Assembly (NCBI GenBank): GCA_016927275.1
Contig: JAFGMW010000035.1
Coordinates: 1 to 37,874 of the forward strand
Reading direction: 5' to 3'
Length of the DNA stretch: 37,874 nt
DNA from: Pseudomonadota bacterium
GTDB lineage: Bacteria > UBA10199 > 2-02-FULL-44-16 > JAAZCA01
The notes beneath the pieces are model-generated. The model saw only the letters and a program-made list of their open reading frames with translations. It searched no databases and was not told the origin of the DNA. Positions 2,853 through 24,874 of this stretch are shown piece after piece. Both the position numbers and the translations under genes were made by a program. Every line of letters begins with the position of its first letter. Positions within the stretch are counted from its first letter, which is position 1.

Positions 2853-3860
2853 ATGAAGATCAAGGCAACGACGGTGTTGTTCCTGGTGCTGATCGCGACC
2901 ATCGCATACGCGAAGCCCGCGTGGACCTGCACCCAGACCGATATACTCTCGAACAGTCAGGGAGACTACCTTTTCCTCAAGTGGAAGACGAGCCAGAACA
3001 AATGGCGCGTCACCGTGAAGGGCAAGATGGCCGCGAACAAGAAATTTTCAGATTATAAGTATTTCAACTATACGACCACGCCCCCCACGGTCAGCCTCAC
3101 GGCGGATCTCTACAAGGACACGCAGAGCACTCCGCTAAAGAGCTATGACATGAGTCCTTTCTTCAGTGCGTCGAAGGACGACACGAATTTCATGTGTCTT
3201 TTTCTCGTCGAGCCTACGGATATGCCCGCCAACGCCAAGCTGGTCTTCAAGGTCAACAAGGACGACAAGTGCGATGAGTCCCCTAAGATTGCGATCAAGC
3301 TGGATACCGACGGCGATTTTTGGCCCGACGATTCGGATAATTGTCCCAATGTCAGCAACTACTATCAGGAGGACGCCGACGGGGACGGTGTTGGAGACAA
3401 GTGCGACAACTGCGTGAATGTGGCCAATCCCGACCAGGCAGACGCGGACGGGGATAAAGTGGGGGACGCGTGCGAGGAAGCGGTTGCCGAAAGCGACACT
3501 GACGGCGACGGGGTGGCGGACAGCCTCGACCAGTGTCCGGGCACTCCGAGCGGGACGCAGGTGGACGCAACAGGCTGCGAAGTCCAGGCCGAACCGGCCC
3601 AGTGCGACCTGAGCGACCCCGAGGCCGACTGCGACAATGACGGGGTGATCAACCTGGCCGATTCATGCCCAGAGGAGGCCGGCACAGGCAGCGACGGCTG
3701 CCCGGTTGTCGACACCGGAGCGGGCGCCGTCACGGCCCCGACCACGACCATCAGCGACGGCGGGTTCTGCAGCGTCATGCCCGCTGCCGTATTCAACCCC
3801 GCGGGGTTCGCGGCCATCGCCCTCGCGCTTGCGGCGCTCGTGGTGAAGAGAAAAAGATAG
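2853..3860 (+). CDS. Exported TSP3-repeat protein with MYXO-CTERM-like tail
   Basis: A 335-residue precursor. A signal peptide occupies residues 1 to about 20 (MKIKATTVLFLVLIATIAYA). The N-terminal domain of about 120 residues is unrecognised. An array of TSP3 calcium-binding repeats (DNCPN..., DADGDGVGD, CDNC, DQCPG, DSCPE) covers roughly residues 145-290. The C-terminus has the tripartite sorting layout: a GGFCS motif, a hydrophobic helix, and a KRKR end. The ATG at 2853 is preceded directly by a GGAGGAGGAG Shine-Dalgarno stretch. It is the first of three consecutive genes of this type, with a strong terminator behind it and a candidate sigma-54 promoter in front, so it is probably its own transcription unit. 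Likely cell-surface or secreted after processing at the Cys motif; the function of the N-domain is unknown. Confidence 0.88.
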   Translation: MKIKATTVLFLVLIATIAYAKPAWTCTQTDILSNSQGDYLFLKWKTSQNKWRVTVKGKMAANKKFSDYKYFNYTTTPPTVSLTADLYKDTQSTPLKSYDMSPFFSASKDDTNFMCLFLVEPTDMPANAKLVFKVNKDDKCDESPKIAIKLDTDGDFWPDDSDNCPNVSNYYQEDADGDGVGDKCDNCVNVANPDQADADGDKVGDACEEAVAESDTDGDGVADSLDQCPGTPSGTQVDATGCEVQAEPAQCDLSDPEADCDNDGVINLADSCPEEAGTGSDGCPVVDTGAGAVTAPTTTISDGGFCSVMPAAVFNPAGFAAIALALAALVVKRKR

Positions 3861-5716: not shown

Positions 5717-5791
5717 GCCTGTATCGCAGCGCCGGCCCCGCTTGCCTAGCTCTGTCCCCCGTGTTAGGCCTTGCCGATACCTGGAGATGGA

Positions 5792-8323: not shown

Positions 8324-8331
8324 GAGGGAAG

Positions 8332-9051
8332 ATGAAGGCACCGTTTTTCGGAACCAGGATCGTGAAGGACATTCCGCTCGACGAGGTCGAGGCGCTGCTC
8401 GACAAGGAGGCGCTCTTCGCCTCGCGCTGGCAGTTTCGTCGGGGTATTTCCGCGGACGAGTGGGAGGGGCTCAAGGCCGAAAAGGCGATCCCCATATACG
8501 AGAGGCAGATGGCGCTGGTGCGGGCTCAGTCGGCCATAGCGCCGGCGATCGCTTACGGCTACTTCGAGTGCAGGCGCATAGGCAACGGGCTTCTGGTGAA
8601 GGGGGAGCGCCGCGAGTTCCGCTTCGATTTCCCGCGCGAGAGGCAGACGCCCAACCGATGCATCGCCGACCTCTTCGGTCGCGGCTTCGCGGCGTTCCAG
8701 CTCGTGACCGCAGGGGGCCGCGCCTCCGAGATATCGGCGAGGCAGTTCTCGGAGAAGAGATACAGCGACTCGTTCTACCTCAGGGGGCTGGCGGCGCAGT
8801 TCGCGGAGGCGACAGCGGAGTTCTGCCAGCGCATGATAAGGGCCGAGCTCGGCGCGGGGGACGTGGTGGGCTTCCGCTTCAGCCCCGGCTACCCGGCGTT
8901 CCCCGACCTCATGGACCAGCGAAAGATCTACGAACTGCTGGGCGCCGACAGGATCGGCGTGAGGATCACCGAGACCTGCCAGCTCATTCCTGAGCATTCG
9001 ACCTCGGCCATCGTGTCGGTCGACGAGGAGGCGGCCCCGTTCAGGCCCTGA
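8332..9051 (+). CDS. Stand-alone methionine synthase reactivation-domain protein
   Basis: A 239-residue protein matching the C-terminal AdoMet-binding activation domain of MetH. The hallmark stretch is SPGYPAFPDLMDQRKIYELL, followed by GADRIGVRITET and PEHSTSAIV. In the family this domain binds S-adenosylmethionine and reductively remethylates cob(II)alamin that has become inactive. It lies 8 bp after metH, with GAGGGAAG as ribosome binding site, so the two halves are certainly co-expressed. The same gene split is known in Thermotoga maritima. The 3' end overlaps the convergent gene by 11 bp. The electron donor is not evident from the neighbourhood. Confidence 0.93.
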   Translation: MKAPFFGTRIVKDIPLDEVEALLDKEALFASRWQFRRGISADEWEGLKAEKAIPIYERQMALVRAQSAIAPAIAYGYFECRRIGNGLLVKGERREFRFDFPRERQTPNRCIADLFGRGFAAFQLVTAGGRASEISARQFSEKRYSDSFYLRGLAAQFAEATAEFCQRMIRAELGAGDVVGFRFSPGYPAFPDLMDQRKIYELLGADRIGVRITETCQLIPEHSTSAIVSVDEEAAPFRP

Positions 9052-10995: not shown

Positions 10996-13350
10996 CTAGG
11001 CGGGGTCGTACTCCAGCAGCTCCTCTTCGCCGCGGAGGACGCGCAGCGCGCCGCCGACGATGGCCGAGGTCTCCGATTCGCCGGGGTACTCGAAGATCGG
11101 CGCCAGGAACTCGCAGCGCGCCTTGATGGAGCGGGTGAGGAGCGGGATCGCGGCGTAGGCGCCGGTGATCGCGATCGCGTCCACCCTGCCGCGCAGCGCC
11201 GCGGCGAGCGCGCCGATCTCCTTGGAGACCTGGTAGGCCATGGCCTCGACGACCCCGGCAGCCTTCTCGTCGCCCGCTTCGATCATGCGGTTTATCTCCT
11301 CCACGTCTGTGACGCCCAGATAGGCGATGAGCCCTCCCGCGTTTCGGATCTTGTGGAGCACCGACTCCTCGGAGGCCCCCTCCTGGAAGCAGAGCCTCAC
11401 CACGTCGACCGTGGGGAGAGACCCGGCGCTGAGGGCGGAGAACGGGCCGTCCCCGTCGAGTGCGTTGTTCACGTCCACGACCTTGCCCTGCCGGTGGGCG
11501 CCCACCGATGTCCCGTCGCCGATGTGCGCGACGATCGCGTTGATCCTGTGCGGCGGCTTCCAGATGTTGCCGGCCATGCGCCTGATCACCGCCTTATGGT
11601 TGGAGGCGTGGAAGATCGAGGCGCGCCTTATCTCTGGCATGCCGGAGAACCGGGCGAGATCGTCCATCTCGTCGACCACGACCGGGTCCACGATGAAGGC
11701 GTCGATGTCGTTGGCCTCCGCGATCTCGTTTGCGATCACCGCACCCCAGTTGGAGGGGTGCTGGCGCCAGGCGTTCTTCACCAGATCGTCGACCATGGAC
11801 CGCGTGACGCGGTAGACCCCGCCCGGCAGCGGGTGCAAAAATCCCCCCCTGGCCGCTATCGCGTCGATCGTGGAGAGGTCGATGTTCAGCTGAGAGAGCC
11901 TGCGCGCGAGTTCCTCCTTGATGAGGTTGAGCTCCGATTCGCGCTGAGCCGCGTCCATCGCCCGGTCGAGCCTGTGGGGGATGGCGGTCTCGAAGACCGC
12001 GACGTCGTCGTCGAATATCGCGACGTGGGTCGCCAGCTGGCTCGGGCAGACCGCCAGCACCCTGAAGCTCTTGATCACGCGCCTCGGCCTCACCAGCGCG
12101 CCGAGCATGGCCAGCAGCGCCGAGGGGAGCACCCAGCCGATGCCCAGGTGGGTGAGAGGCAGCACCTCCCAGATGCGGTCCGCGACCGCTATACCCGCGC
12201 CGCTCGCGTGCGCCGCCTCCACTATGCCGGAGATGAGGGCGCCGGCCGCGGCCCCCCGCCATATGTTGCGGTTGGAAAGCCTCCAGCCGACGAGGCACAG
12301 TATCACGATCACCATCACGACCGGGTAGAGCGTGACCAGGAGCGGCACGGCCAGGGATATGATCTTCTCCACGCCGGCGTTGGCGAGGATGAAACTCACC
12401 GCTGCGATCGCGACGCAGACGAGCCTGTAGTTGAGTCTCCCGTAGGAGAACTTGTTGAAGTACTCCCCGCACACGACCGTGAGCCCTATGGCCGTGGTGA
12501 GGCACGCCATGGCTACAGCGACGCCGAGGAAGAGGCCGCTGGCCCGCCCGAGCAGCGAGTGCGAGATGAAGATCATGAGCTCGGTGCGGGTCATCTGCTC
12601 CGCGAGCACGCTCGTGGTGGCGCCGAGGTAGTTGAGCCCGCCGTAGATCAGAGCGAGCGACACCGCTGAGATTATGCCCGCCCTTATGATGATGCTCAGA
12701 TGGGCCGAGCGCTCGAATATGCCCTTGCTGCGCAGGTCGTTGAGTATGACGATGCCGAATATGGTCGCGGCCATCAGGTCCATGGTCTGATAGCCCTCGA
12801 TGAGCGACTTCCCGAAGGCGTGCGGCGCGTCGGTGACGATCGGCGAGGCGATGGGGCTCGCTATGCCCCTGGCGATCATTGCGGCCAGCGAAGCCAGGAG
12901 AAGCGGCGTGAGGATCTTGCCGATCCTGTCTATCACCGAGAGGGGGTTGAGCGCGAAGAAGAGCACGGCGCCGAAGTAGAGGGCGGAGAACAGCCAGGAG
13001 TTGATCTGCGGGAAGTTGGGCGCGATCGCGAGCTCGAAGGTGGTGGCGCAGGTCCTGGGTATCGCGAGAAACGGGCCGATCACCAGCATGAGGGTGAGCG
13101 AGAGCGCCTTTGCGAAGCGTGGGTCGATCCTGCGGGCCATGTGGTCGATGCCGCCCTCGGCCCTGGCCACCGAAAGCACACCGAGGAGCGGAAGCCCGAC
13201 GCCGGTGATCACGAATCCCAGCAGAGAGAGGCCGAAGCGGTCGCCGAAGAGCCTGCCGAGCGACGGAGGGAATATGAGGTTGCCCGCGCCGAAGAACATC
13301 GCGAAGAGGGCGAACCCCAGGACCAGCGCTGTCTTTGTGTTTCCTCGCAT
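10996..13350 (-). CDS. Fusion of BrnQ-type branched-chain amino acid carrier and butyrate kinase-like domain
   Basis: A 784-residue single frame with two full-length modules. Residues 1 to about 420 are an LIVCS/BrnQ cation-coupled branched-chain amino acid carrier, with about 12 membrane helices and N-terminal FAMFFGAGNLIFPP. Residues 429-784 align along their length with butyrate kinase of the acetokinase superfamily: RGGFLHPLPGG at 501-511, NNALDGDGPFS at 629-638 and an RVLRGEE end. The phosphate-binding NPGSTSTK motif is replaced by CPSQLATH (435-442). AHxGGG has become AHIGDG (Asp612), and the family Arg before the GxLP motif is Ser641. Catalysis is therefore doubtful, and a sensing or regulatory role is possible. 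The ATG at 13350 is chosen; upstream in-frame residues are not carrier-like. It is divergent from the complex I-like operon. Confidence 0.9.
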   Translation of the reverse strand: MRGNTKTALVLGFALFAMFFGAGNLIFPPSLGRLFGDRFGLSLLGFVITGVGLPLLGVLSVARAEGGIDHMARRIDPRFAKALSLTLMLVIGPFLAIPRTCATTFELAIAPNFPQINSWLFSALYFGAVLFFALNPLSVIDRIGKILTPLLLASLAAMIARGIASPIASPIVTDAPHAFGKSLIEGYQTMDLMAATIFGIVILNDLRSKGIFERSAHLSIIIRAGIISAVSLALIYGGLNYLGATTSVLAEQMTRTELMIFISHSLLGRASGLFLGVAVAMACLTTAIGLTVVCGEYFNKFSYGRLNYRLVCVAIAAVSFILANAGVEKIISLAVPLLVTLYPVVMVIVILCLVGWRLSNRNIWRGAAAGALISGIVEAAHASGAGIAVADRIWEVLPLTHLGIGWVLPSALLAMLGALVRPRRVIKSFRVLAVCPSQLATHVAIFDDDVAVFETAIPHRLDRAMDAAQRESELNLIKEELARRLSQLNIDLSTIDAIAARGGFLHPLPGGVYRVTRSMVDDLVKNAWRQHPSNWGAVIANEIAEANDIDAFIVDPVVVDEMDDLARFSGMPEIRRASIFHASNHKAVIRRMAGNIWKPPHRINAIVAHIGDGTSVGAHRQGKVVDVNNALDGDGPFSALSAGSLPTVDVVRLCFQEGASEESVLHKIRNAGGLIAYLGVTDVEEINRMIEAGDEKAAGVVEAMAYQVSKEIGALAAALRGRVDAIAITGAYAAIPLLTRSIKARCEFLAPIFEYPGESETSAIVGGALRVLRGEEELLEYDPA

Positions 13351-13435
13351 ATTCGCAGTCGGAAGCGGGGCAGACCTATAGAAAACACGACGCGAGTGCA
13401 ACGGTAATAATGGGGCGGGCGCCATTGGGTTTGTG

Positions 13436-13471: not shown

Positions 13472-13675
13472 ATGCCGTTCTTCCTCATGGCATCTCTGTT
13501 TCTCGTCTTTGCGACCGGCTTCGTCCTGCTAGTGCCGTGGGCCCTCGCCTTCAGGTGGGCGGCGGATTCAGGCGCTGCCGTCGCTGCCTTCGTCCACATC
13601 GCGGCGTTCCTCTTCTTCATGGGGATCGCCCTGGCCTTCGCGCTCGGCGGCAGGGCCCTTGACCGTGAGGGGTGA
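13472..13675 (+). CDS. Short NuoA-like membrane subunit
   Basis: A 67-residue protein with two membrane helices, first gene of the complex I-like operon. It resembles the C-terminal two thirds of NuoA. FVLLVPWALAF lies where NuoA has the FDVEVxFLYPWA helix, and the second helix ends in GGRALDRE, where NuoA has a RKGALxW-type end. The normal first helix and loop are missing (NuoA is usually 115-150 residues), and the conserved acidic pair of the second helix (D-x-E) is absent. It is followed after one base by the nuoB-like gene. Identity rests on position, topology and the PWA and GALD motifs. An alternative is an unrelated small subunit occupying the NuoA site. Confidence 0.6.
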   Translation: MPFFLMASLFLVFATGFVLLVPWALAFRWAADSGAAVAAFVHIAAFLFFMGIALAFALGGRALDREG

Positions 13676-13676
13676 G

Positions 13677-14132
13677 ATGTCCCTGGATTTCTTCGGAGCG
13701 CGGGCAGGGGACCTCGTGGCGTGGGCCAGGCGCAGGGGCCTGGCTGCGGTCGAGCTCGCGTCGTGCTGCTGCGGATGCACGGATGCGCGGCCCTGCCGCG
13801 GCTTCATGTTCCCCACGGTCGAGAGGCCGGAGGAGGCGGACCTGCTCATCGTCTCCGGCCCCGTGGGCGCGAAGAGGGCAAGGCTCTTGAGGGATTTCTA
13901 CGACAGGATGGGCGAGCCCAGATGGGTGATCGCGCTCGGGACGTGCGCGTCGTCAGGCGCGCTTGCCGCTCCCTACGCCGGGAACTGCGGCGCCGATCGC
14001 GCGGTGCCGGTCGACGTGCGCGTCCCCGGCTGCCCGCCCGACGCCGGGGAGCTCGTGCGCGCGGTCGAGAAACTCGCATCCATGATCAGAAGGCCCGCTC
14101 CGGTGGAGGAAGATGATCAGAAATCCGATTGA
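13677..14132 (+). CDS. NuoB-like subunit (cluster N2 protein) with cysteine-rich loop
   Basis: A 151-residue member of the NuoB / small hydrogenase subunit family, the peripheral-arm protein that binds the terminal [4Fe-4S] cluster N2. Ligand positions are retained: a tandem Cys group C30-C32, C90 in GTCASSG and C119 in VPGCPP. EADLLIVSG and PRWVIALGTC are canonical. Unusual: the loop after the tandem cysteines, normally carrying the RFG and SPRQ motifs near the quinone, is replaced by a shorter segment with extra cysteines (C34, C40). The ATG at 13677 is preceded by GAGGGG; an upstream in-frame TTG is less likely. It overlaps nuoC by 20 bp. Confidence 0.88.
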   Translation: MSLDFFGARAGDLVAWARRRGLAAVELASCCCGCTDARPCRGFMFPTVERPEEADLLIVSGPVGAKRARLLRDFYDRMGEPRWVIALGTCASSGALAAPYAGNCGADRAVPVDVRVPGCPPDAGELVRAVEKLASMIRRPAPVEEDDQKSD

Positions 14133-14553
14133 GGCGGTGGGGGATGGGATCCGCGGGGCGAAGGTGAGCGGCGAGGGGGCCGCCGCGCGCGCCGAGGTGC
14201 CCCCCGAGAGATGGGAGGATGCGGCCGCGATCCTCAAGGTGCAGTCGGGCCTCTCCGCCCTCATGGACCTCTTCTGCATCGACCGCGAGGGGGAGGGGCT
14301 GCGCTTCGAGATCGTGGCGAAGCTCAGCGACGGCGGCGGGGGGTCTCGATTCACGCTCACGGCGCGCCTCCCCGAAACCGGTTCGGAGATCGCATCGCTG
14401 GTCAGGGTGCACCCGGCTGCGGAGTGGTACGAGAGGGAGTGTTTCGATATGTTCGGCATATCGTTCAGGGGCGGCCCTGCGCATAAGAGGATACTCACGG
14501 AGGACGATTTTCATGGTCATCCGCTGAGGAAGGATTTTCGAGGGGTATCATGA
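14113..14553 (+). CDS. NuoC-like (30 kDa) subunit
   Basis: A 146-residue homologue of NuoC, a structural subunit of the peripheral arm that packs against NuoD. The family signature is clear near the C-terminus: W-Y-E-R-E-C-F-D-M-F-G-I-x-F, then H-K-R-I-L, then DFHGHPLRKDF. The N-terminal half is shorter and more divergent than usual. Translation is coupled at both ends: it starts inside nuoB, and its TGA overlaps the nuoD ATG (ATGA). Because a NuoC-like protein is characteristic of complex I and its closest relatives, it supports an origin from that branch. Confidence 0.88.
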   Translation: MIRNPIEAVGDGIRGAKVSGEGAAARAEVPPERWEDAAAILKVQSGLSALMDLFCIDREGEGLRFEIVAKLSDGGGGSRFTLTARLPETGSEIASLVRVHPAAEWYERECFDMFGISFRGGPAHKRILTEDDFHGHPLRKDFRGVS

Positions 14554-15722
14554 CCGGCTCCGCCGCAGATGCGCATGAGATCTCGATCCCGGCCGGCGAT
14601 CCCGGTTCCGGCATGCCGTTTCGCCTTGTGATCAAGGCCCGAGGCGCCCGGGTCGAGGCGGCCCGGTCCGAGATCGGCTTTGCGCACCGGGGCCTCGAGA
14701 AGCTCGCCGAGTCCATGACGTGGCATTCGGCCAGGGCGGTCGCGGAGAGGGCGGGCTGCGCGTCGCCCGGCATCGCCGGCACCTGCTGCTGCATGGCGGT
14801 GGAGTCCCTCTTCGGCGTGGAGGTCCCGGCGAGGGCGAAATGGCTGCGCACGATCCTCTGCGAGGCGTGGAGGATACGCGAGGGGCTGTCGCACGCGGGC
14901 CGCACGCTCGCGCACGCCGGTCTCCCCTCGCGCGCCGCCCTCCTCCTCTCGTGCAGGGATTCGGTCGAGGGGTGGGTGCGCGCCTCTTTCGGCGCCTCCG
15001 GCTCCTCATCCAGGATAGGGGGCGTGGCGCGCGACCTGGGCGGCGCGGAGAGCAAGAGGGGCCGTGCGCTCATGCGGAGGGTGAGGGACGAGGCAGGCGG
15101 TGCTGCCTCTGCCCTTGCGGGAGACCGGATCTTTTCGGACAGGACGCGAGGAGTCGGCGTGATTTCGGCCGACGCCGCCTCCGCATGGGGCGTAACGGGG
15201 CCATCCCTTCGGGCCGCGGGGCAGGCAAGGGACCTGAGGAGGGACCTGCCGTATCTCATGTACGCCGGGCTCGATTTCGAGGTCCCGGTAGGGGCGGAGG
15301 GGGACGTGTTCGACCGGACCGTGGTCCGGCTGCTTGAGTCGACGGAGTCCGCGCGCATAGTGGAAGAGGCGATGGCGATGATGGAGCCGGGGCCGCTGAC
15401 TGCAAAGGAGGGGGCGGTCGTCCTCCCCCCTGCGCACGAGGTGTACGGCGGCGGTGAGGGCTTGGCGAGGCACAGGCGCATCATGGCAGGCAAGCAGCGG
15501 CTCCCGGCCGGGGAGGGATGCGCATTGGTGGAGGCGGCTTCGGGCGAGATGGGGTTTCACCTGGTCTCCGACGGCTCCCCCCGGCCTTACAGGTTCAGGG
15601 TGCGGTCGCCGTCGTTCGCGCTCTGTCAGGCGGCCCCGGTGATTCTGAAGGGGTGCGCGGTCGAGGACGTGCCCATGATCGTTGCGAGCCTCGGGGCCTC
15701 GGCCTCTGAGGCGGACAGGTGA
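14550..15722 (+). CDS. NuoD-like (49 kDa) subunit without quinone-site or NiFe-site residues
   Basis: A 390-residue homologue of NuoD / hydrogenase large subunit. The fold signature is visible: IGFAHRGLEKLAE (42-54), AVESLFGVEVPARA, RIGGVARDL, the DVFDR region, and RSPSFALCQ near the end. The N-terminal HPSTHG motif is replaced (GSGM), so the quinone-site His (His38 of Thermus Nqo4) corresponds to Gly21. In an ungapped block ending in AVES, the quinone-site Tyr87 corresponds to Cys70. The hydrogenase CxxC pairs that bind NiFe are also absent, and the usual SLDPVMGEVDR end reads SLGASASEADR. It therefore appears to be neither a quinone reductase nor a hydrogenase subunit. The ATG overlaps the nuoC stop. 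Confidence 0.88.
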   Translation: MTGSAADAHEISIPAGDPGSGMPFRLVIKARGARVEAARSEIGFAHRGLEKLAESMTWHSARAVAERAGCASPGIAGTCCCMAVESLFGVEVPARAKWLRTILCEAWRIREGLSHAGRTLAHAGLPSRAALLLSCRDSVEGWVRASFGASGSSSRIGGVARDLGGAESKRGRALMRRVRDEAGGAASALAGDRIFSDRTRGVGVISADAASAWGVTGPSLRAAGQARDLRRDLPYLMYAGLDFEVPVGAEGDVFDRTVVRLLESTESARIVEEAMAMMEPGPLTAKEGAVVLPPAHEVYGGGEGLARHRRIMAGKQRLPAGEGCALVEAASGEMGFHLVSDGSPRPYRFRVRSPSFALCQAAPVILKGCAVEDVPMIVASLGASASEADR

Positions 15723-15732
15723 GGGGGATCGA

Positions 15733-16791
15733 TTGGACCCGATAGAGATCTGGACGGCGGCCCTCTCCGCGGCGCTGGCGCTCGCGGTGCTGTGCGGGCT
15801 CATGCGCGCCGCCTCGGCGCTCGACCGCTGGGCCGCATCCCCCTCCGGCCGCTGCGGGCCGGCGTACGGCACAGGCCTCGTCCGCGCCGCGGCCCTGGCG
15901 CTCTCGCTCGTGTCCAGGGGGCCGAAGAGGAAGCCGGGCGTCGCCGCGGCGTTCGCATTCGCGCCGGTCGCGGCGCTCGTCGCGGCGCTCGCCGCCGCAG
16001 CGCCTGTGCAGCTTGCGCCCGCGATATCCGCCGGCGCCTGGCGGTTCTCCTTCACGGTCTGGGAACCGGGCGCGGGGCTTCTTTTCTCCCTCGCCATGGT
16101 CTCCCTGTGGGCGTGCGCGTCGTTTCTCTCCATGGCCGGCGAGGGCGACCGCGCCTCGCGCGCGGTGGCGGTCGGATCGGCCGCGGCGTACTTCTCGTTT
16201 TTTCCGGCGATGATGCTCGCCCTGGCCTCAGTCGTCCTCCTCTCGGGGAAGATCGATCCGGCGGGGCTGGTCGCGGACCAGGGCGATGCGATCTGGAGAT
16301 GGAACTGGGCGAGGCAGCCGGTCGCGTTCGCCATATTCGCGGCCAGCTCATGCATGGCCCTGCGCAGGGTCGAGAGCGGCCGCTTCGCGGGGCAGGATGT
16401 GGCGCGCATCCATCCCCAGACGGCCGCTGCCGCGGGATTTGTACGGCGCCTCTCGTTCAGCGCGCTCGCGGCCGCGCTCGCTGCGGTCGGATGCTCCGCG
16501 TTCCTCGGCGGCTGGCAGCTGCCGTTTCTGCCTGTGTCGTCCCTGGCCGAATCCCTCCGGGTGATCGTGCCGGCCTGGGCGGTGGAGCCGTCGGTCGCCG
16601 TCGCGGGCCTTGCGGCGATGGCGGCTAAGAGCGCCCTGCTCCTTGTGCTGTTCGCATTCGCGCGGGCGTCCATCGCCTCCCTCAGGGGGGACCGGCTCGT
16701 GCGCTTCGCGTGGAGGGCCCTCATGCCTTTGGCTATGGCAAATCTTGCTGCGACCGCCTATATTGTGACCGTCCTGTCGAAGGGGGATTAG
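15733..16791 (+). CDS. NuoH-like membrane subunit, divergent
   Basis: A 352-residue protein with eight or so membrane helices, in the NuoH position between D and J. GRCGP (40-43 region) and the WEPGAGLLFSLAMVSL block fit NuoH topology. The signature motifs are badly eroded. The loop that normally reads A-E-T-N-R-x-P-F-D-L-x-E-x-E-S-E-L is replaced by a basic stretch around residues 210-240 (MALRRVESGRFAGQD...), and the Glu in the S-Y-E motif is lost (SFFP). Those acids line the quinone chamber and the E-channel in complex I. Translation starts at TTG 15733 behind a GAGGGGG ribosome binding site. The stop overlaps the next GTG by one base. No nuoI gene follows, unlike the usual order. Confidence 0.8.
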   Translation: MDPIEIWTAALSAALALAVLCGLMRAASALDRWAASPSGRCGPAYGTGLVRAAALALSLVSRGPKRKPGVAAAFAFAPVAALVAALAAAAPVQLAPAISAGAWRFSFTVWEPGAGLLFSLAMVSLWACASFLSMAGEGDRASRAVAVGSAAAYFSFFPAMMLALASVVLLSGKIDPAGLVADQGDAIWRWNWARQPVAFAIFAASSCMALRRVESGRFAGQDVARIHPQTAAAAGFVRRLSFSALAAALAAVGCSAFLGGWQLPFLPVSSLAESLRVIVPAWAVEPSVAVAGLAAMAAKSALLLVLFAFARASIASLRGDRLVRFAWRALMPLAMANLAATAYIVTVLSKGD

Positions 16792-17288
16792 TGGAGGCGA
16801 TCGTCTTCTACATCCTTGCGGCGGCCGCGACCTCATCGGCGGTCATCGCGCTCTCCAGGCGCGACCCGCTCAGCTCCGCGGTCTGGCTCCTGGGCCTCGT
16901 GATACCGGTCGCTGCCATCATGGCGCTGATGCGCGCGCCGCTGGCGGCGTCGGCGTTTCTCATCGTCGCCGTGGGATCGACCCTCTCGTTCTGCCTCTAC
17001 GTCCTCATGCTCATGGAGCCGGGCAGGAGGGCGAGGGCCCGGCAGATAAAATTCGGCAAGGTGCTCGCGGCCGTGGCCGCCGGCTACCTCGCCATCGTCA
17101 TGTCGATAGCGGTCGCGGCGCCCCCGTTTTTTGCGGCGCCGGCGAGCGGCGTGCACTTCGATTCGCCGCTCACCGTGGGCAAGGCCATCGCCTCCGGGTA
17201 CGCGCTCGCCTTCGCGTTATCCGGGCTCATGCTCATGGCCGCGGCCGCGGCCTCGGTGGTAATGGCGGGCAGGGAGGGAGAGGGATGA
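16791..17288 (+). CDS. NuoJ-like membrane subunit
   Basis: A 165-residue protein with five predicted helices. The family N-terminal pattern (SRNPxxSAL) appears as SRRDPLSSAV. The helix that has a conserved Y-V-G-A segment with a pi-bulge in NuoJ reads AVGSTLSF here. The C-terminal Y-x-x-x-F-E-x-A-S helix reads YALAFALSG, so its glutamate is Ala142. It starts with GTG at 16791 overlapping the nuoH TAG, with AGGGGG upstream, and ends in a 4-bp overlap with nuoK. It follows nuoH directly, with no room for a ferredoxin-like NuoI. Confidence 0.82.
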   Translation: MEAIVFYILAAAATSSAVIALSRRDPLSSAVWLLGLVIPVAAIMALMRAPLAASAFLIVAVGSTLSFCLYVLMLMEPGRRARARQIKFGKVLAAVAAGYLAIVMSIAVAAPPFFAAPASGVHFDSPLTVGKAIASGYALAFALSGLMLMAAAAASVVMAGREGEG

Positions 17289-17590
17289 CGCTCACCCTTC
17301 AGCACCTGCTCCTGCTTTCGGCGGCCCTCTTCGCGATCGGCGCCGCGGGAGCGTGCGTGCGCAGGAACGTCCTCGTGGTGTTCATGTCGATCCAGACGAT
17401 GATGGCGGCGGCGATGCTCGCGATGGCCTCCTTCGCGCGGTGGAACCTCCTGCCGGAGGGCAAGGCGGCCATGTTCTTCCTGATAGCGGTGCTCGCCGCG
17501 CAGGCGGCGGCGGGGCTGGCCCTTCTGGTGGCGGTCTTCAAGAGATGCGGGACTGTGCACGGAGACGAGCTGAGGCTTCTGAGGGACTAG
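17285..17590 (+). CDS. NuoK-like membrane subunit with both key glutamates replaced by glutamine
   Basis: A 101-residue, three-helix protein of exactly the normal length and easily aligned with NuoK. LQHLLLLSAALFAIGAAG, the MSIQxM helix, the third helix (LAAQAAAGLAL) and the GTVHGDELRLL end all match. In E. coli NuoK the membrane glutamates E36 and E72 are needed for proton pumping; the matching positions here are Gln37 and Gln73. The rest of the protein is well conserved, so the change is specific rather than general decay. ATG at 17285 overlaps the nuoJ TGA. Confidence 0.92.
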   Translation: MTLTLQHLLLLSAALFAIGAAGACVRRNVLVVFMSIQTMMAAAMLAMASFARWNLLPEGKAAMFFLIAVLAAQAAAGLALLVAVFKRCGTVHGDELRLLRD

Positions 17591-17591
17591 G

Positions 17592-19577
17592 ATGCTCGAA
17601 CTCATATACAGCCACGTTAGCCTGCAGGCGATGATATGGCTCGTGGTCGCGATGCCGCTGGCCGCAGCCGCGGCGAGCGCGCTGGTCGCCGCCCTCTACT
17701 CGGGCAGCGAATCGCCGGGACCGAGGCCCCTGGTCTCGCTCCTGAGCGTCTGCGCGCCTCTCGGGTCCCTGGCCGCCACTGCGGTGATCTTCTTCACCCT
17801 GACCGGCTTCGACGCCGTCTCGCCCTCCGCCATCACCGGGCCTCTGTTCCGGTGGGCCGCGATACCCGGCTTCAGCGTGGACGTTGGGCTTCGCGTGGAC
17901 GAGCTGGCCATGTTCATGGCGGCGCTCGTGGCGGGCGTGGGGTTTCTCGTGCAGCTGTACTCGATCGGCGACATGTGGAACGACGACGGTTTCTTCAGGT
18001 ACCACGCCGTATCCTCGCTCCTCATATTCTTCATGCTGCTGGCGGTGCTCGCCGACAACCTGGTGCTGGCCATCGCAGGGTGGGAGGGGGTCGGGTTCTC
18101 ATCCTGCGCGCTGATCGGTTCCCGCAGGGGAGAGGGGGCCGATCTGCGCTCCGGGCTGCGCGCCTTCGCCATAAACGCGATAGGCGACGCCTCCCTGCTC
18201 GCTGCGGCGTTCGTGATATTCGGCGCCATGTCCGCCTCGGGGGCCGACGCGGATTCGGGCCTCTTCAACTTCGAGACCATGGAGCGCCAGGTCGCCTTCT
18301 TCATGCCCGTGGCCTCCGCCGTCGCCCTGCTCATATTCGGCGCCGCGGCGGCCAAATCGGCCCAGATCCCGCTGCACCTGTGGATGCCGGAGGCGGCGCT
18401 CGCACCGACCCCGGCCTTCGCCCTGATGGGCACGGTCACCACCGCGGCGCTCGGCGTCTACATGGTGATCAGGCTCAACTACATATTCGCGCTGGCGCCT
18501 GCCGCCCTCTCGGTCATGGCGTGGGCGGGCGCGGCATGCGCCCTCCTCTCCGCCACGATGGCGCTGGCCGAGAGGGACCTGCGCAGGATACTCGCCTATT
18601 CCACCGTATCCCAGTTCGGGCTCATCTACATGGCTGCGGGCATGGGCGCGTTCATCGCGGCCTCGTTCCATCTGGCGACGCACGCCCTCTTCAAGTGCCT
18701 GCTCGTGCTCTCGGCCGGCAGCGCCATAAAGGCCTCCTCCGGCGAGAGCGACGTCCTGTCGATGGGCGGGCTCGTGCGGAGGATGCCGATAACCGGATGG
18801 GCCTTCGTGGTCTCCGCCGCGGCGATGGCCGGGATCGCGCCCGCATCGGGCTTCTTCAGCGAGCAGGCGATACTGGGCAGGGCCTTCGAGCGGGGGCACG
18901 TCGCGCTCTGGATCATGGGGCTCGCCGCCCTCGGCGTGACCGCCTTCTACATCTTCAGGGCCGCGGGCGCGGTATTCTTCGGCGACAGCGCGCTGGACGC
19001 GTCGAGGTACAAGAGGGTGGCGGAGCCGTCCATGAGCATGGTGCTGGCCACGATGCTTCTAATCTCGCTTGTCGCGGGGGCCGGCTTCGCAGGGCTGCCG
19101 CATTGTCTGGGAGGCTCCGATTGGATAGGCGGCTGGCTCGGCACGCTCATACCGTCTGAGAGCGGCAGCGCGTTCTCAGACGGATCCTGCGGCACGTGGA
19201 TGGTCCTCGCGGCGGTCTTTCTGCTGTGGTCGGCGCACTTCGCCGTGCTCGGCTGGCTCATCTACGCGCAGAAGCGCGACTGGCCCGCCCGGGTGGCAAG
19301 GCGCATAAGGCCGCTCGCGCAGCTGGCGGCCAGGAAATATTACTTCGAGGAGATCTGCGGCCTTGTAATAGTCGGGCCTGTCGAGTGGTTCGCCCGCGTG
19401 ATAGTGAAGCGGGGGGTGGACAGGACCGCGATCGACGGGATAGCGGCGGGCGGCGTGGCGAGGACGGTGGGGCTCGGCGCCTCGATCGCGCGCGCCGCGC
19501 AGAGCGGCATGCTCTATCACTACATGCTCTATTTTCTCATCGGCGCCGTAGCGATAATCGCGCTGGTGGCGCTGTGA
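17592..19577 (+). CDS. NuoL-like antiporter subunit
   Basis: A 661-residue, multi-helix antiporter-like subunit. Pumping residues are present: Glu165 in GWEGVG (helix 5), Lys255 in AAAKSAQIPLHLW (helix 7), and the Lys in HALFKCLL. The helix that usually has ALIHAAT reads ALMGTVT, so its His is Gly280. The C-terminal KYYFEE motif and following helices suggest the long lateral helix that clamps NuoM and NuoN is retained. The ATG at 17592 lies one base after the nuoK stop. By conservation this is a potentially functional cation-translocating subunit. Confidence 0.93.
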   Translation: MLELIYSHVSLQAMIWLVVAMPLAAAAASALVAALYSGSESPGPRPLVSLLSVCAPLGSLAATAVIFFTLTGFDAVSPSAITGPLFRWAAIPGFSVDVGLRVDELAMFMAALVAGVGFLVQLYSIGDMWNDDGFFRYHAVSSLLIFFMLLAVLADNLVLAIAGWEGVGFSSCALIGSRRGEGADLRSGLRAFAINAIGDASLLAAAFVIFGAMSASGADADSGLFNFETMERQVAFFMPVASAVALLIFGAAAAKSAQIPLHLWMPEAALAPTPAFALMGTVTTAALGVYMVIRLNYIFALAPAALSVMAWAGAACALLSATMALAERDLRRILAYSTVSQFGLIYMAAGMGAFIAASFHLATHALFKCLLVLSAGSAIKASSGESDVLSMGGLVRRMPITGWAFVVSAAAMAGIAPASGFFSEQAILGRAFERGHVALWIMGLAALGVTAFYIFRAAGAVFFGDSALDASRYKRVAEPSMSMVLATMLLISLVAGAGFAGLPHCLGGSDWIGGWLGTLIPSESGSAFSDGSCGTWMVLAAVFLLWSAHFAVLGWLIYAQKRDWPARVARRIRPLAQLAARKYYFEEICGLVIVGPVEWFARVIVKRGVDRTAIDGIAAGGVARTVGLGASIARAAQSGMLYHYMLYFLIGAVAIIALVAL

Positions 19578-19590
19578 TCCGGAGGGGCGA

Positions 19591-21153
19591 TTGGCTGAGA
19601 TGATCTCGAGGGCGGCGGAGTTTATGTCGGCGCATATGGTGAGCGCGGCCGTGGCGCTGCCGCTGGCGGGCGCGATCGTCTCGCTCGCGATCCCGGCCGG
19701 GGCGAGGGCCGCGGCCAGGGTCGCCTCGGCGATATTCTCCGCGGTCGGCGCCGGGCTGTGCGTCGCCGCCTTCGCCAGGATCCGCGGCAGCGGGGAGATA
19801 GAGTTCGCGGAGATGGCGCAGTGGATACCGTCGCTCGGGATCTACTACAGGGTCGGGTTCGACGGGGTCTCGGGGCTGCTCGCGGCTGCAGCGTCGGCTT
19901 CGTGCTTCGGCTCCATCATATTTTCCCTGAGGCGGGAGGTCCCGAGGGAGCGCCTGTCGCTCGCCCTCATGCTCTTCGCCCAGGGGTGCCTCACCGGGAT
20001 ATTCGCCTCGCTCGACGGGTTCCTCTTCTACCTCTTCTGGAGCGGCTCGGCCGCTGCCCTGTGCCTTTTGACGGGGGTGTGGGGTGAGGGCGGGAGGATC
20101 GCCGCCGCTACGAAATTCATGGCGTTCGCAGCGGCGGGCAGCGCGGCTATGCTCCTCGCGTTCGCCTTCGCAGGGGCGAGCGCAGAGTCGTTCTACATCG
20201 TGGACTGGATGGCCCACCGGTTCGGCCTCTTCGACCAGATGTGGATGTTCTGGGCGCTCGCGCTGGCCTTCGGGGTCATGATGCCGATAGCCGGGCTCCA
20301 CACCTGGCTCGCGGATCTCTGCGAGCAGTCGTCTCCTGCGGGGGCGGCGCTCGCCGGGGGGGCGATGCTGGCTGCCGGCGCCTACGGATTCTTCAGGATC
20401 GGCATGCCGATAGCGCCGGTGGCGGTCGCGGTCTTCGCGCCCGCCATGTGCTGGCTCGGCGTGGCCGCGGTGTTCATGGGAGCCATGCTGGCCCTTGCCG
20501 AGAGGGATCTAGCGCGGATCGCGGCGGCGGTCTCGCTCTCGCAGATGGGGATCGTGCTGCTGGGTCTCTTCTCGCTCCAGTCCGTGGGGGTTTCCGGCGC
20601 GGTGCTGCTCATGGCGGCCAACGCACTGATAGCGTGCGGGGTCCACATGGTCTCGGGCACGCTCAGGGCGAGGGCGGGCGGCTCCGACCTGGCGAACGCA
20701 GGGGGGATATGGCGCGCGATGCCGGCCGTGGCCGCTGCGCTCGCCCTCTTTGCTGCCGCGGCGGTCGGCCTGCCAGGCCTCGCCGGATTCTCCGGCCAGT
20801 TCACGCTGCTGCTGGGCAGCTTTCAGGTGCGCACGCTGCACGCGTCGCTGGCCCTTGCGGGGCTCGCCATTCTGGCATCCGCGATCGCGGTCAGGGTGGT
20901 CATCGCCCTCTTCGGCAGGCGCGCGGCCGGGGATGAGCGGCGCCGGTCCGACGCTGGGCCGGCGGAGATCACGGCGATGGCCGCTATCGGGGCGGTGATC
21001 GTGCTGGCGGGCCTCTGGCCGCAGCCGCTGCTCGGCAGGATAGAGAGGCCTGCGGAGGCCTTTGTGAAGCTCTCGAAGAGGGTGGAGATGATAATCCCGG
21101 CGGGCCGTTCGCCGGTCCCGGATGAGGCGGCGCCCGAGGGGAGGGGCGAGTGA
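19591..21153 (+). CDS. NuoM-like antiporter subunit with pumping residues replaced
   Basis: A 520-residue protein aligning with NuoM along most of its length (LHTWLAD, AGAYGFFRI, AERDLARIAAAVSLSQMG, GLPGLAGFSGQFTLLLGSF). At the four positions essential or important in E. coli NuoM the residues differ: Ser151 for Glu144 (FWE to FWS), Met230 for Lys234 (FAVKMP to FGVMMP), Ala261 for Lys265, and Gln403 for Glu407. The helix with a conserved SHG reads ANA. The scaffold is well kept, so it probably still assembles. The TTG start at 19591 sits behind GGAGGGGCGA; an ATG at 19600 is the alternative. It overlaps nuoN by 4 bp. Confidence 0.9.
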   Translation: MAEMISRAAEFMSAHMVSAAVALPLAGAIVSLAIPAGARAAARVASAIFSAVGAGLCVAAFARIRGSGEIEFAEMAQWIPSLGIYYRVGFDGVSGLLAAAASASCFGSIIFSLRREVPRERLSLALMLFAQGCLTGIFASLDGFLFYLFWSGSAAALCLLTGVWGEGGRIAAATKFMAFAAAGSAAMLLAFAFAGASAESFYIVDWMAHRFGLFDQMWMFWALALAFGVMMPIAGLHTWLADLCEQSSPAGAALAGGAMLAAGAYGFFRIGMPIAPVAVAVFAPAMCWLGVAAVFMGAMLALAERDLARIAAAVSLSQMGIVLLGLFSLQSVGVSGAVLLMAANALIACGVHMVSGTLRARAGGSDLANAGGIWRAMPAVAAALALFAAAAVGLPGLAGFSGQFTLLLGSFQVRTLHASLALAGLAILASAIAVRVVIALFGRRAAGDERRRSDAGPAEITAMAAIGAVIVLAGLWPQPLLGRIERPAEAFVKLSKRVEMIIPAGRSPVPDEAAPEGRGE

Positions 21154-22637
21154 CGGCTGCGATCCTCGACATCGCACACGCGTGGTTCCCCGGCGCGGCG
21201 CTTCCGCTGGCGGTGCTCGCGATCGCCGCGGCCGCGGCACTGATCTCCTCCGCGGCGACCAGGGGCGCGGGCCGATGGGTCGACGCCGGGATCTCCGTCG
21301 CCGGGCTTCTGGCGGCCGCTGCGCTCGCATGGCGGACCTGGCCGGAGGCCGGGACCGCCGGGGCGGCGATCCTGATCACCGACCGGCTCGGGCTGGCCGG
21401 CATGATCGTGGTGCTTGCTTCGGCGGCCTGCTCGGCGCTCATATCGAGCCCTTATCTCGGGCACCGCGAGCGGACGGGGATCGGATTTTACGGCCTGCTG
21501 ATGCTCTCAGCCTTCGGCATGGCGGCGCTGTGCTTCGCAGGCGACCTCATCGCCATCCTCATCGCCATGGAGACCGCGTCGATCTCCCTCTCGGCGATGG
21601 CCGGCTACGCGCGCACCCGGCCGCAGTCGGTCGAGGCCTCGCTCAAGATGTTCATGATGTCCGCGTTCTCGACCGCGTTCTACTGCATGGGGCTGGCTTT
21701 CATATTCGGCAGCCTGGGCAGCACGTCGCTCGCGACCATCGCGGAGAGGTTCGAGTACGTCCTCTCCGGCGAGGGGAGGGGGATGTTCCTCTTCGGGCTC
21801 GCGATGGTGTTCTCGGGCCTTTCGCTCAAGGTCTCCGCTGCGCCGTTCCACTCCTGGGCGCCGGACGTGCTCGAGGGGTCGCCCATGCCCGTGTCGCTCT
21901 TCATCGCCACATCGGCCAAGGCAGCGGGCCTCGTCGCGCTCCTTCGCATCGCCATGGCTATTGCGGCCCCCGGCGGCGCGCTCTGGCACGGGCTCGCCTC
22001 CGCGGTCGCGGCAGTCACGATCCTGTGGGGGGCGCTGGCCGCGATGCGACAGGAGAATCTCAAGCGGATGCTGGCCTATCTCTCGGTCGCAGCCGGCGGG
22101 TTCATGCTGGCTGCGCTCCCTTCGCTGGCCCTTTCCCACGCGCCAATGGCGCGCGCCCTCCTCATGAACCTCGTGGCCTACTGCGTCTCGATGGTGGGCG
22201 CGTTCGCGGCGCTGGCCGCCCTGGCGCCGGGCGATGGGCTGGACTCGAGACGCCTGTGCGGGCTCTCCAGGCGCAGGCCCTGGGCCGCGGCCGCGATGTC
22301 GCTGTTTCTTCTCTCGCTCGCCGGCGCGCCTCCCACTCTGGGGTTTGCCGGGAGGTTCTATCTCGTGATGGAGGTTGCGCGCGCGGGCGACATAATGCTC
22401 GCGGCGGTGGTGTCGCTCGGCACGGCGATCATGTTCATCTGCGTCTTGAGGCCCATAGTCTCGATGTACATGAGGGAGGCCGGGGCGGCGCCCGCCCTTG
22501 AGGGGCAAGAGGCGGCAGGCGGGGGGTCGAACGTGCTCACCGGCGTCATGGCCGCAGCGGCGCTGGCGGTATCGGCCTTCGGCCTCTTTCCGCAGGACCT
22601 GATGGCCTTCGTCTACGCCTCCTCGGCCCTTTTGTGA
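21150..22637 (+). CDS. NuoN-like antiporter subunit
   Basis: A 495-residue protein, last subunit gene of the operon. Pumping residues are retained: Glu141 in IAMETASISLSAMAGY, Lys227 in SLKVSAAPFHSWAPD, Lys257 in SAKAAGLVALLR, with LEGSPMPVS in between. Near the C-terminus GFAGRF has Arg where family members have Lys. A low-complexity cytoplasmic loop (GQEAAGGGSN) precedes the last helix. It starts with GTG at 21150 overlapping the nuoM stop. Together with NuoL it is one of only two antiporter-like subunits here with intact ionisable residues. Confidence 0.92.
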   Translation: MTAAILDIAHAWFPGAALPLAVLAIAAAAALISSAATRGAGRWVDAGISVAGLLAAAALAWRTWPEAGTAGAAILITDRLGLAGMIVVLASAACSALISSPYLGHRERTGIGFYGLLMLSAFGMAALCFAGDLIAILIAMETASISLSAMAGYARTRPQSVEASLKMFMMSAFSTAFYCMGLAFIFGSLGSTSLATIAERFEYVLSGEGRGMFLFGLAMVFSGLSLKVSAAPFHSWAPDVLEGSPMPVSLFIATSAKAAGLVALLRIAMAIAAPGGALWHGLASAVAAVTILWGALAAMRQENLKRMLAYLSVAAGGFMLAALPSLALSHAPMARALLMNLVAYCVSMVGAFAALAALAPGDGLDSRRLCGLSRRRPWAAAAMSLFLLSLAGAPPTLGFAGRFYLVMEVARAGDIMLAAVVSLGTAIMFICVLRPIVSMYMREAGAAPALEGQEAAGGGSNVLTGVMAAAALAVSAFGLFPQDLMAFVYASSALL

Positions 22638-22693: not shown

Positions 22694-23446
22694 ATGCCTC
22701 CCATGATAAAGCCGGGCGCCAGAGGCGGGCTCACCACCCCCACGGGGCTGGACGACTTCCTGGACGAGAAGAGCCTGCGCGGCCAGGTGGTGGGCAGCTG
22801 GGGGTTCAACGCCAACATCGACTTCACGCGCATGAGCGCTGAGCAGTCCAATGTCTGGTTCTTCGAGCAGATATTCAATTTCCTCCGCTCCTTCTTCGGG
22901 CTCGTCGTCCCGGACAACATGGAGATAAGCACCACCGGCGGGAAGAGGCAGGTGACAAGGGACAACCTCAACCAGATGACCTTCCTCGACGAGCTCATGC
23001 TCGTCATGAAGGGGCTTTCGGAGCCGATCTGGTGCATAAGGCTCAACCTCAACATCGTGGGGTTTCTCAGGACCGAATACGATCCCGACAAGCCGGTGAG
23101 GCTGCACATCCAGGAGCCGGCCAGCTTCATCGTGTGGGGTGGGCCGGACGAGACCGGGTTCCAGACCTTCTCGCTGGGATATCGGCTCTTCGCGGAGCAG
23201 AAGATGAAGGGGGAGCACACGCTCCTGTGGTCAATGAACCAGCCGCTGCTCGAGAAGGGGCTCAGGAAATGGGAGCGCCAGTCGCGCCGCAGGATCGAGG
23301 TCGTGCGCGGAAACTCCGACGACCTCCCGCTCTATCGCCACGGCTTCTCCAAGCCGGCGCCCGCCCGCCCCCGCGCGAAGCCGAAGCCCAGGGACGAGGG
23401 CCCCGTGGTCGACACCCTGCCGGATTTTGATGATTTGATGTTGTAG
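22694..23446 (+). CDS. Unknown soluble protein, 250 residues
   Basis: No family recognised. The N-terminus (MIKPGARGGLTTPTGLDDFLDEK) is followed by a mixed alpha/beta region with aromatic clusters (VWFFEQIFNFLRSFFG). A basic segment comes next (RKWERQSRRRIEVVRGN), and the tail is Pro/Lys-rich and ends in acidic DFDDLML. There is no signal peptide or membrane helix. The ATG at 22694 or the one at 22703 could be the start. It lies 56 bp after nuoN on the same strand and may belong to that transcript, which makes it a candidate accessory factor, but nothing in the sequence shows this. Confidence 0.65.
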   Translation: MPPMIKPGARGGLTTPTGLDDFLDEKSLRGQVVGSWGFNANIDFTRMSAEQSNVWFFEQIFNFLRSFFGLVVPDNMEISTTGGKRQVTRDNLNQMTFLDELMLVMKGLSEPIWCIRLNLNIVGFLRTEYDPDKPVRLHIQEPASFIVWGGPDETGFQTFSLGYRLFAEQKMKGEHTLLWSMNQPLLEKGLRKWERQSRRRIEVVRGNSDDLPLYRHGFSKPAPARPRAKPKPRDEGPVVDTLPDFDDLML

Positions 23447-23769: not shown

Positions 23770-24099
23770 TCATATTTTCAGTAATTCAACGATTCTTTCA
23801 TGGCTTTCACGCTCCTGGTCGCCCTTGAAGTACAGTTCAATGAAGACAATCTGCTTAGCCTGTTTATCATACGCATAAACGACACGAAGCGAAGTTCCTC
23901 TGAGGTATTTGCAAAATAAACGCGCTTTGATGACGTCGATGTCTCCATGTTGGCGCAATACCGTAAAGTGTTTGCTGCTGCCGAATGGGACAGCCGCGAC
24001 TACTTTTTTGAATTCGGAAAAATCTTCGGGCAGGGACCTATATTTTTTCGAAAGGTGTTTTAGATCTTTGGTGAATTTGGGAGTCTCACTAAAGTTCAT
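23770..24099 (-). CDS. RelE/HigB-like toxin of a toxin-antitoxin pair
   Basis: A 109-residue basic protein with the RelE/ParE-type pattern: F-x-x-T-P-x-F-x-K-D-L-K-H-L-x-K-K-Y at the N-terminus, a central basic strand (VIKARLFCKYLRGTSLRVVYAYD), and I-V-F-I-E-L-Y-F-K-G-D near the end. In the family such proteins inhibit translation, usually by mRNA cleavage. It overlaps the antitoxin gene by 11 bp, which indicates coupled translation. Base composition is distinctly less GC-rich than the genome, consistent with horizontal transfer. Confidence 0.78.
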   Translation of the reverse strand: MNFSETPKFTKDLKHLSKKYRSLPEDFSEFKKVVAAVPFGSSKHFTVLRQHGDIDVIKARLFCKYLRGTSLRVVYAYDKQAKQIVFIELYFKGDQERESHERIVELLKI

Positions 24100-24874
24100 C
24101 GTCGTAGCTTCTCACGGAATGCTCATAATCGCGGTAGAAGACGCTCTCGTAGCTGATCTTCTCCCCTTGTTTATGGACCTTCCAGGGCATATCCTCATGG
24201 GAATAATCGTTCAACTCCTTCGCGCTCTTGTCCGAGAGGCGGGCGAGCACATCGTCGATGTGCCTGACCTCCCTCGCAGATAGAGCGGACATGTCGGGCC
24301 CTCTCAATGGCAAGTATTTTTTCTGCTCGTACTGAAAATACGAGCTTGAAACCTGTTCGATCTCTTTCTTCTTTTTCATATCATCGACGATCTTCACGAA
24401 TTCAACAGGTGTAGGGCCAAACCGGTTTTTTATATAGGTCGCCCCGACCAACTGCTCCTCAAATTTTTCATAGTAGTCAAAATCGATGAAGTAGAGGAGC
24501 TTGTAGATCGCCGTTTCCCCGATATTTGATTTTGCCCCGACCTTCTCAAGGATATAGAGAAGGACCTCTTTGAACTTTTTCAAATTTCTCTGGGGCACGC
24601 TGATGCGGATGTCTGAAACTTTTTTCCCGGTTTTCGAGGGAGGTTCAATGACAACATTCGGAACGGATGCCTCCCTGGCCCGCAGAAAATCCGGCAAATC
24701 GACATCAAAGAGTTCAGAGAGCTTCTCCGCTTCAGAGATAGTCAATTCCCGATCATTTTTCTCGATTTGAACGTAGGTGGGTCGTGAAACGCCAATTTTT
24801 GCAGCCACATAATCCTGTGAAAAATCGGCATGTTCTCTAAGCTGTTTTAGATATGCCCCAAAATTTTTCTTCAT
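24089..24874 (-). CDS. XRE-Panacea antitoxin (DUF4065-type)
   Basis: A 261-residue protein. Residues 5-62 are an XRE-type helix-turn-helix (QLREHADFSQDYVAAKIGVSRPTYVQIE). Residues about 100-245 match the Panacea/DUF4065 (SocA-like) domain, with KLLYFIDFDYYE and GPTPVEFVKIVDDM as hallmarks. Panacea proteins with an attached HTH are known antitoxins that neutralise varied toxins, here the RelE-like protein encoded just downstream. The antitoxin gene comes first, the usual order in PanAT pairs. The helix-turn-helix probably autoregulates at the palindrome between the promoter and the start codon. Codon use is AT-richer than the flanking housekeeping genes. Confidence 0.85.
   Translation of the reverse strand: MKKNFGAYLKQLREHADFSQDYVAAKIGVSRPTYVQIEKNDRELTISEAEKLSELFDVDLPDFLRAREASVPNVVIEPPSKTGKKVSDIRISVPQRNLKKFKEVLLYILEKVGAKSNIGETAIYKLLYFIDFDYYEKFEEQLVGATYIKNRFGPTPVEFVKIVDDMKKKKEIEQVSSSYFQYEQKKYLPLRGPDMSALSAREVRHIDDVLARLSDKSAKELNDYSHEDMPWKVHKQGEKISYESVFYRDYEHSVRSYDDEL

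Follow-up and report, generated by a model that had tools for sequence, protein, structure and literature searches.

How quinone reduction in complex I is linked to proton pumping up to 200 Å away is still debated, according to the parts of PMC13324432 and PMC9271201 available to us. The nuo cluster described here raises the question of what such a complex can still do when conserved acids of its membrane heel, in NuoH, NuoA and NuoJ, have been lost, as a first-pass annotation had claimed. The window, that is, the whole stretch of DNA analysed (37,874 nucleotides), is an entire contig (JAFGMW010000035.1; G000:C35) of a Pseudomonadota MAG of 1.81 Mb in 119 contigs, with an estimated completeness of 96 per cent.

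The nuo cluster and its surroundings

Ten intact genes on the + strand, in the order nuoA-B-C-D-H-J-K-L-M-N, run from 13472 to 22637, and each passes its Pfam cut-off. Homologues of the core subunits of complex I, from both the membrane part and the Q-module, are therefore found together in one cluster. Genes for NuoE, NuoF and NuoG were not found in it; 10 bases separate the end of nuoD (15722) from the start of nuoH (15733). In the window's own genome no NuoI exceeded the cut-off (best score 55 bits against 113.05). When eight other genomes were searched, five had a passing NuoI as a separate gene (G001, G004, G005, G006 and G007), and that of G002 fell just below the cut-off at 110.5 bits. 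A profile search found no second NuoH elsewhere in the window's own genome, which also had no PF00361 antiporter-type gene outside the nuo cluster.

Downstream of nuoN lies a + strand gene (22694..23446) for which no Pfam family was found. It served as a marker of the orthologous locus, as its N-terminus resembles by eye those of the post-nuoN genes of L050 and L042. A low-GC3 pair on the - strand (23770-24874), encoding a Panacea/SocA-like antitoxin-type protein with an HTH and a small partner, sits between this conserved gene and that for methionyl-tRNA synthetase; it looks inserted, since in G002 the two flanking genes adjoin each other. Other features of the window are a - strand frame of 809 aa (10996-13425) that fuses a branched-chain amino acid transporter (PF05525) with an acetate/butyrate kinase-type domain (PF00871), a cobalamin methionine synthase carried by two + strand genes (5771-9051; a catalytic/B12 part of 850 aa and an activation-domain protein of 239 aa), and a + strand gene (2817-3860) whose protein contains thrombospondin type 3 repeats.

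Loss of conserved acids from the membrane heel

Residues were compared with those of up to 16 relative genomes (7 for NuoA, 10 for NuoB, 8 for NuoC and 14 to 16 for the rest). G039, G019 and the second cluster of G034 (L040, L053, L059, L058) stayed unaligned, and NuoA to NuoD of G001 stood outside the invariant counts, the key-residue table and the trees, with the identities of NuoB, NuoC and NuoD computed separately. In Pfam profile alignments NuoH, NuoA and NuoJ all scored over their cut-offs. The NADHdh match of NuoH (15733..16791, TTG start, 352 aa; E=9e-20) came in two pieces, profile 10-191 and 229-297 of 298, and skipped the loop between them. As the first-pass annotation had proposed for residues of about 210-240, this loop, canonically AETNRxPFDLPEGESE, is replaced by a basic stretch, ALRRVESGRFAGQDVARIHPQT, in which E215 and D222 are the only acids left. 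The SYE motif was confirmed to read S155-F156-F157, with Glu at position 157 in 16 of the 16 aligned relatives. At the NuoH positions where all 16 relatives share one residue, the window keeps 1 of 13 acids and 34 of 89 other residues (Fisher p=0.03; this and all later p values are small-sample and unadjusted). The loop is hard to align, and a three-sequence alignment that puts E215 opposite a conserved acid may add one more kept acid to that count; the SFF change and those in NuoA, NuoJ and NuoK fall in well-aligned stretches. An AlphaFold model of NuoH from a three-row alignment had a mean pLDDT of 40 and was set aside.

The loss extends to the small subunits. NuoA (13472..13675, 67 aa; Oxidored_q4 1.7e-07, profile 41-98 of 99) is without its first helix and loop, and the D-x-E pair reported as absent indeed reads A14-x-G16, both acids being changed (D>A14, E>G16) where all seven relatives keep them. 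In NuoJ (16791..17288, GTG start; Oxidored_q3 5.7e-14) the FEL motif is FAL, as the first reading of the sequence had it, with Ala142 in place of a Glu present in 16/16 relatives. NuoK (17285..17590; Oxidored_q2 2.5e-18) carries Gln at both membrane Glu positions (E>Q37, E>Q73), at which 15/15 relatives have Glu, and retains 15 of its 16 non-acid invariants. Laboratory mutants with Glu to Gln changes in NuoK exist, and we placed no weight on them. When NuoH, NuoA, NuoJ and NuoK were pooled, 3 of 22 invariant acids were kept, whereas of the remaining invariant residues 71 of 152 were (p=0.005), in line with the earlier claim that the heel, NuoK included, had been stripped of acids. A general loss of acids is ruled out because NuoC (14113..14553; Complex1_30kDa 1.4e-30) and NuoD (14550..15722; Complex1_49kDa 8e-68), encoded in the same cluster, keep 9/9 and 19/25 of their invariant acids, respectively. 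The membrane heel has thus lost its conserved acids: the E-channel acids of NuoH, NuoA and NuoK and the Glu of NuoJ are gone. The stripping is in fact wider than had been claimed, as it also takes in the His and Tyr residues at the quinone site in NuoD, the NuoB loop beside N2, NuoE, NuoF, NuoG and NuoI, and charged residues of NuoM.

Channel residues of NuoL, NuoM and NuoN

In NuoM (19591..21153; Proton_antipo_M 9.8e-35) all six key channel residues are lost: E151S, K230M, K261A, H318Q, H344N and E403Q. These positions correspond to E144, K234, K265, H322, H348 and E407 of E. coli, with H348 assigned by offset and the others from the aligned E. coli chain, and a phmmer comparison with solved chains gave identical replacements. 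E. coli numbering was carried over residue by residue for NuoM only; for the other subunits it came from motifs and from the residue names in the available parts of PMC9271201 and PMC13324432. NuoL (17592..19577; Proton_antipo_M 3.1e-53) keeps six of nine key residues (E165, D199, K255, H360, H364, K368) and loses H280 (G), K424 (E) and D425 (Q), so that the exit pair equivalent to K399/D400 is lost and NuoL may be closed too. NuoN (21150..22637; Proton_antipo_M 7.1e-48) keeps four of six (E141, K227, K257, K305), with Arg at K402, the K395 equivalent, and Ala at H315. Key residues, which were our own choice guided by the available text of PMC9271201, were kept at 0/6 in NuoM versus 10/15 for NuoL plus NuoN (p=0.012), and non-key invariants were kept alike (56/89 versus 147/210, p=0.28). 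Relatives agree with one another at the key residues. The buried ion pair and the central lysines are retained in NuoN and in the cytoplasmic half of NuoL.

According to the parts of PMC11496545 available to us, isolated Nqo12 and Nqo13 of T. thermophilus conduct protons, and conduction is blocked by K235M or E377Q in Nqo13 and by K385I in Nqo12. Matched through the 'middle' and 'terminal' residue names used in the available parts of two papers, these sites carry A261 and Q403 in NuoM; in NuoL the residue is E424.

Electron-transfer subunits and the probable loss of respiratory function

NuoB (13677..14132; Oxidored_q6 2.5e-18) keeps 4/4 of the N2 cluster cysteines (C31, C32, C90 and C119), which we take from established knowledge of the family to be the N2 ligands, and the neighbouring loop is replaced and shortened. 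The quinone site of NuoD carries H>D17, H>G21 and Y>C70, at which relatives with residues there have His, His and Tyr. NuoD scored 302 bits as NuoD versus 20 as NiFe hydrogenase, and it has neither of the two CxxC motifs that we take as the mark of the Ni-Fe hydrogenase large subunit.

The retained cysteines, together with the acids kept in NuoC and NuoD, favour a repurposed redox enzyme, in which N2 would be reduced directly by a soluble donor, a new acceptor would replace quinone, and the reduced membrane arm would be driven conformationally. Cys70 of NuoD and extra cysteines in NuoB have been considered for the new acceptor, and ferredoxin-linked enzymes are encoded in the genome. However, the cluster has no NuoI or other input subunit, and the E-channel and the NuoM axis are gone. 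Cys content is also raised in NuoM (1.3 versus 0.3 per cent) and NuoN (1.2 versus 0.5 per cent), so the extra cysteines of NuoB and NuoD need not mean a new site; a new metal site was not supported on the same ground. We consider such an enzyme improbable.

Because electron-input parts, quinone-site residues and nearly all coupling charges are lost, a normal respiratory function would not be expected, and judging from the sequence the complex should be unable to reduce quinone and pump protons in the usual way. The explanation we prefer, tentatively and at slightly less than an even chance, is a redox-dead, quinone-less and partly proton-sealed descendant of complex I kept for a role in the membrane, perhaps ion conduction by NuoN and NuoL. 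The complex would still be made and assembled in the membrane, and loss of the charged axis in NuoH, NuoA, NuoJ, NuoK and NuoM would seal most proton paths. With the redox part lost, open channels would leak, and closing them would be an advantage. Redox-independent ion conduction or exchange would then be left to NuoN and to the cytoplasmic half of NuoL. Among the observations that count against this explanation, a purely redox-free role leaves the retained N2 ligands unexplained, and the lost exit pair of NuoL and the Arg at the K395 equivalent of NuoN speak against a remaining ion carrier. The more specific version, a redox-free and quinone-free complex whose proton paths were closed one by one, with functional ion carriers left in NuoN and in half of NuoL, is possible but doubtful.

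Relatives and descent of the cluster

In the same-family genome G002 (JABGOS01; contig JABGOS010000052.1, 'Deltaproteobacteria bacterium isolate co234_bin13') B, C and D are followed by three genes called E, F and G type from their starts alone, and these by H, J, K, L, M and N; the next gene has a start that resembles, by eye, that of the gene at 22694-23446. In G001 (JAJZQH01; JAJZQH010000002.1) A, B, a fused CD and further genes precede H and J-N, interrupted by other genes. Identity to G001, a member of the same family, is 62 per cent for NuoK, 57 for NuoL, 46 for NuoN, 45 for NuoJ, 41 for NuoM and 30 for NuoH; for NuoB, NuoC and NuoD it is 36, 42 and 40 per cent. In FastTree trees without support values, NuoJ, NuoK, NuoL, NuoM and NuoN of the window each branch with G001; in those of NuoB, NuoD and NuoH the window forms a long branch, and its placement there was not trusted. 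From the synteny with G002 and the branching of NuoJ to NuoN with G001, we conclude that the family's own complex I was reduced in place. The cluster is the ordinary complex I of its lineage, reduced in place with all ten genes open.

These data also bear on whether the pattern is an artefact of assembly or binning, or a canonical complex misaligned. The contig comes from a MAG and the alignment of the NuoH loop is partly uncertain; nevertheless, G002 matches the gene order and the gene after nuoN, NuoJ to NuoN branch with G001, the replacements are in frame across ten genes, and phmmer against solved chains repeats those in NuoM. We regard an artefact as very improbable.

The stripped complex was seen in one genome only, a single MAG. 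Among 99 genomes and 46 genomes of the class, the window's own included, a NuoH search found no close relative; the best match by score was 30 per cent identical across 300 residues (E 2.5e-27). A motif pattern was applied to 29 relative loci and matched 24; two of the misses (L007, L012) were canonical by alignment, and the others were L017, L031 and L032. Scans of a genome collection, whose reach is limited and which may leave out records of the same or very near genomes, gave 23 pattern matches with NuoD, none confirmed as a second member, and three loci with a NuoL alignment, two of them G001 and G002 themselves, and again no second member. No complex I with this set of losses was found in a literature search that missed most subscription papers. 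Separately, two relatives of the class carry a second, divergent nuo-like cluster with a NuoH of 402 aa (L058, L059; G034:C8, G019:C1).

Decay or retained function

Tip lengths of the window were far above the median of the other tips for NuoB (2.05 against 0.12), NuoH (2.41 against 0.29), NuoD (1.70 against 0.20) and NuoM (1.25 against 0.25), and less so for NuoL (0.70 against 0.26), NuoK (0.45 against 0.17) and NuoN (0.85 against 0.49). Relative to the median of relatives the tips are 17 times as long for NuoB, 4.5 for NuoC, 8.5 for NuoD, 8 for NuoH and 5 for NuoM, and 1.7 to 2.7 times for NuoJ, NuoK, NuoL and NuoN.

RnfC, RnfD and RnfG are encoded elsewhere in the window's own genome, as is a group A6 [FeFe] hydrogenase, cut by a contig end, with NuoF-like neighbours. 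Contig C115 (L069) has pyruvate synthase genes with NuoF-like and short NuoG-like genes behind them, which may specify an NAD-linked oxidoreductase. A heme-copper oxidase was not found in the genome, its one UbiA scores MenA-like, and no PF02621 (MqnA/D) match was present in any of six genomes. ATPase c subunits are of two kinds, F-type on C13 (L094) and V-type on C21; the Gln and Glu-Ser of the former resemble those of sodium-binding c rings, which we treat as a lead only. Apart from the nuo cluster, the genes suggest fermentation with Rnf and hydrogenase.

The very long branches of NuoB, NuoC, NuoD and NuoH are what one would see in an eroding relic, a complex I being lost from a fermenting lineage, its electron-transfer parts first, with frames still open by chance. 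NuoE, NuoF, NuoG and NuoI are already gone, and no NuoH match was found in the same-family genome G003, which means that a near relative can do without the complex and that the window cluster could be a stage of loss. Ala makes up 25.6 per cent of NuoH versus 17.6 in G001, and GC2 is high in nuoB, nuoD and nuoH, as expected where constraint is relaxed in a GC-rich genome, which counts against function. On the other side, none of the ten frames has a frameshift or premature stop, 9 of the 10 starts have a Shine-Dalgarno-like site (nuoA being without one), and GC3 is 0.80-0.91 across the ten genes. When the excess change in nuoB, nuoC, nuoD, nuoH and nuoM was modelled as random mutation, stops arose in 200/200 runs, and in 196/200 at a quarter of the change; the model is crude, with tip lengths taken from approximate trees and indels ignored. 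Hydropathy profiles follow those of relatives with r of 0.79-0.90 for NuoH, NuoJ, NuoK, NuoL, NuoM and NuoN, compared with 0.41 to 0.69 for NuoB, NuoC and NuoD. The rates of NuoL, NuoK and NuoN are closer to normal, and the changes in NuoM are concentrated on charged residues. As far as the DNA can tell, the intact frames speak against simple decay, as do the ribosome-binding sites and the codon periodicity, and we hold the relic to be rather unlikely.

Comparison with known systems

The window cluster comes closest to the respiratory complex I found in its own family and class (G001, G002), with which it shares NuoB, NuoC, NuoD, NuoH and NuoJ to NuoN (NuoA in G001), gene order, locus and N2 ligands. 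It differs in being without NuoE, NuoF, NuoG, NuoI, the quinone His and Tyr, the E-channel acids and the NuoM axis. As far as the available parts of PMC11238625 describe them, 11-subunit complex I-like enzymes of anaerobes such as Desulfitobacterium also work without an NADH module. Compared with them, the window additionally lacks NuoI as electron entry and has lost coupling residues, and its state without NuoE, NuoF and NuoG is a local loss from a complex that has them in relatives.

Ehr complexes and group 4 hydrogenases are likewise relatives of complex I without a nickel site in the available account of PMC6349859; unlike them, the window has NuoA and three antiporter-like subunits, NuoL, NuoM and NuoN. 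An Ehr complex, suggested earlier as a comparison, did not hold up: it was ruled out by the Nuo-type scores of the subunits, by gene order and flank shared with G002, and by the branching of NuoJ to NuoN with G001, which together indicate vertical descent from a Nuo cluster. The likeness to Mrp antiporters (PMC7419157, as available to us) lies in the proposed redox-free ion transport through NuoL/NuoN-like (MrpA/MrpD-like) subunits. The same text gives MrpC two His where complex I has Glu; in contrast, NuoK of the window has Gln at both Glu positions, and NuoB, NuoC, NuoD and NuoH are present.

The window cluster shows what the membrane arm of complex I becomes after losing its redox part. Without the quinone site, the E-channel and the central NuoM axis, but with parts of NuoL and NuoN retained, such a descendant sets coupling residues apart from conducting ones. 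If the sealed reading is true, the cluster would be a natural experiment on which residues serve coupling and which serve conduction, its E to Q and K to M or A changes resembling the blocks made in the laboratory.
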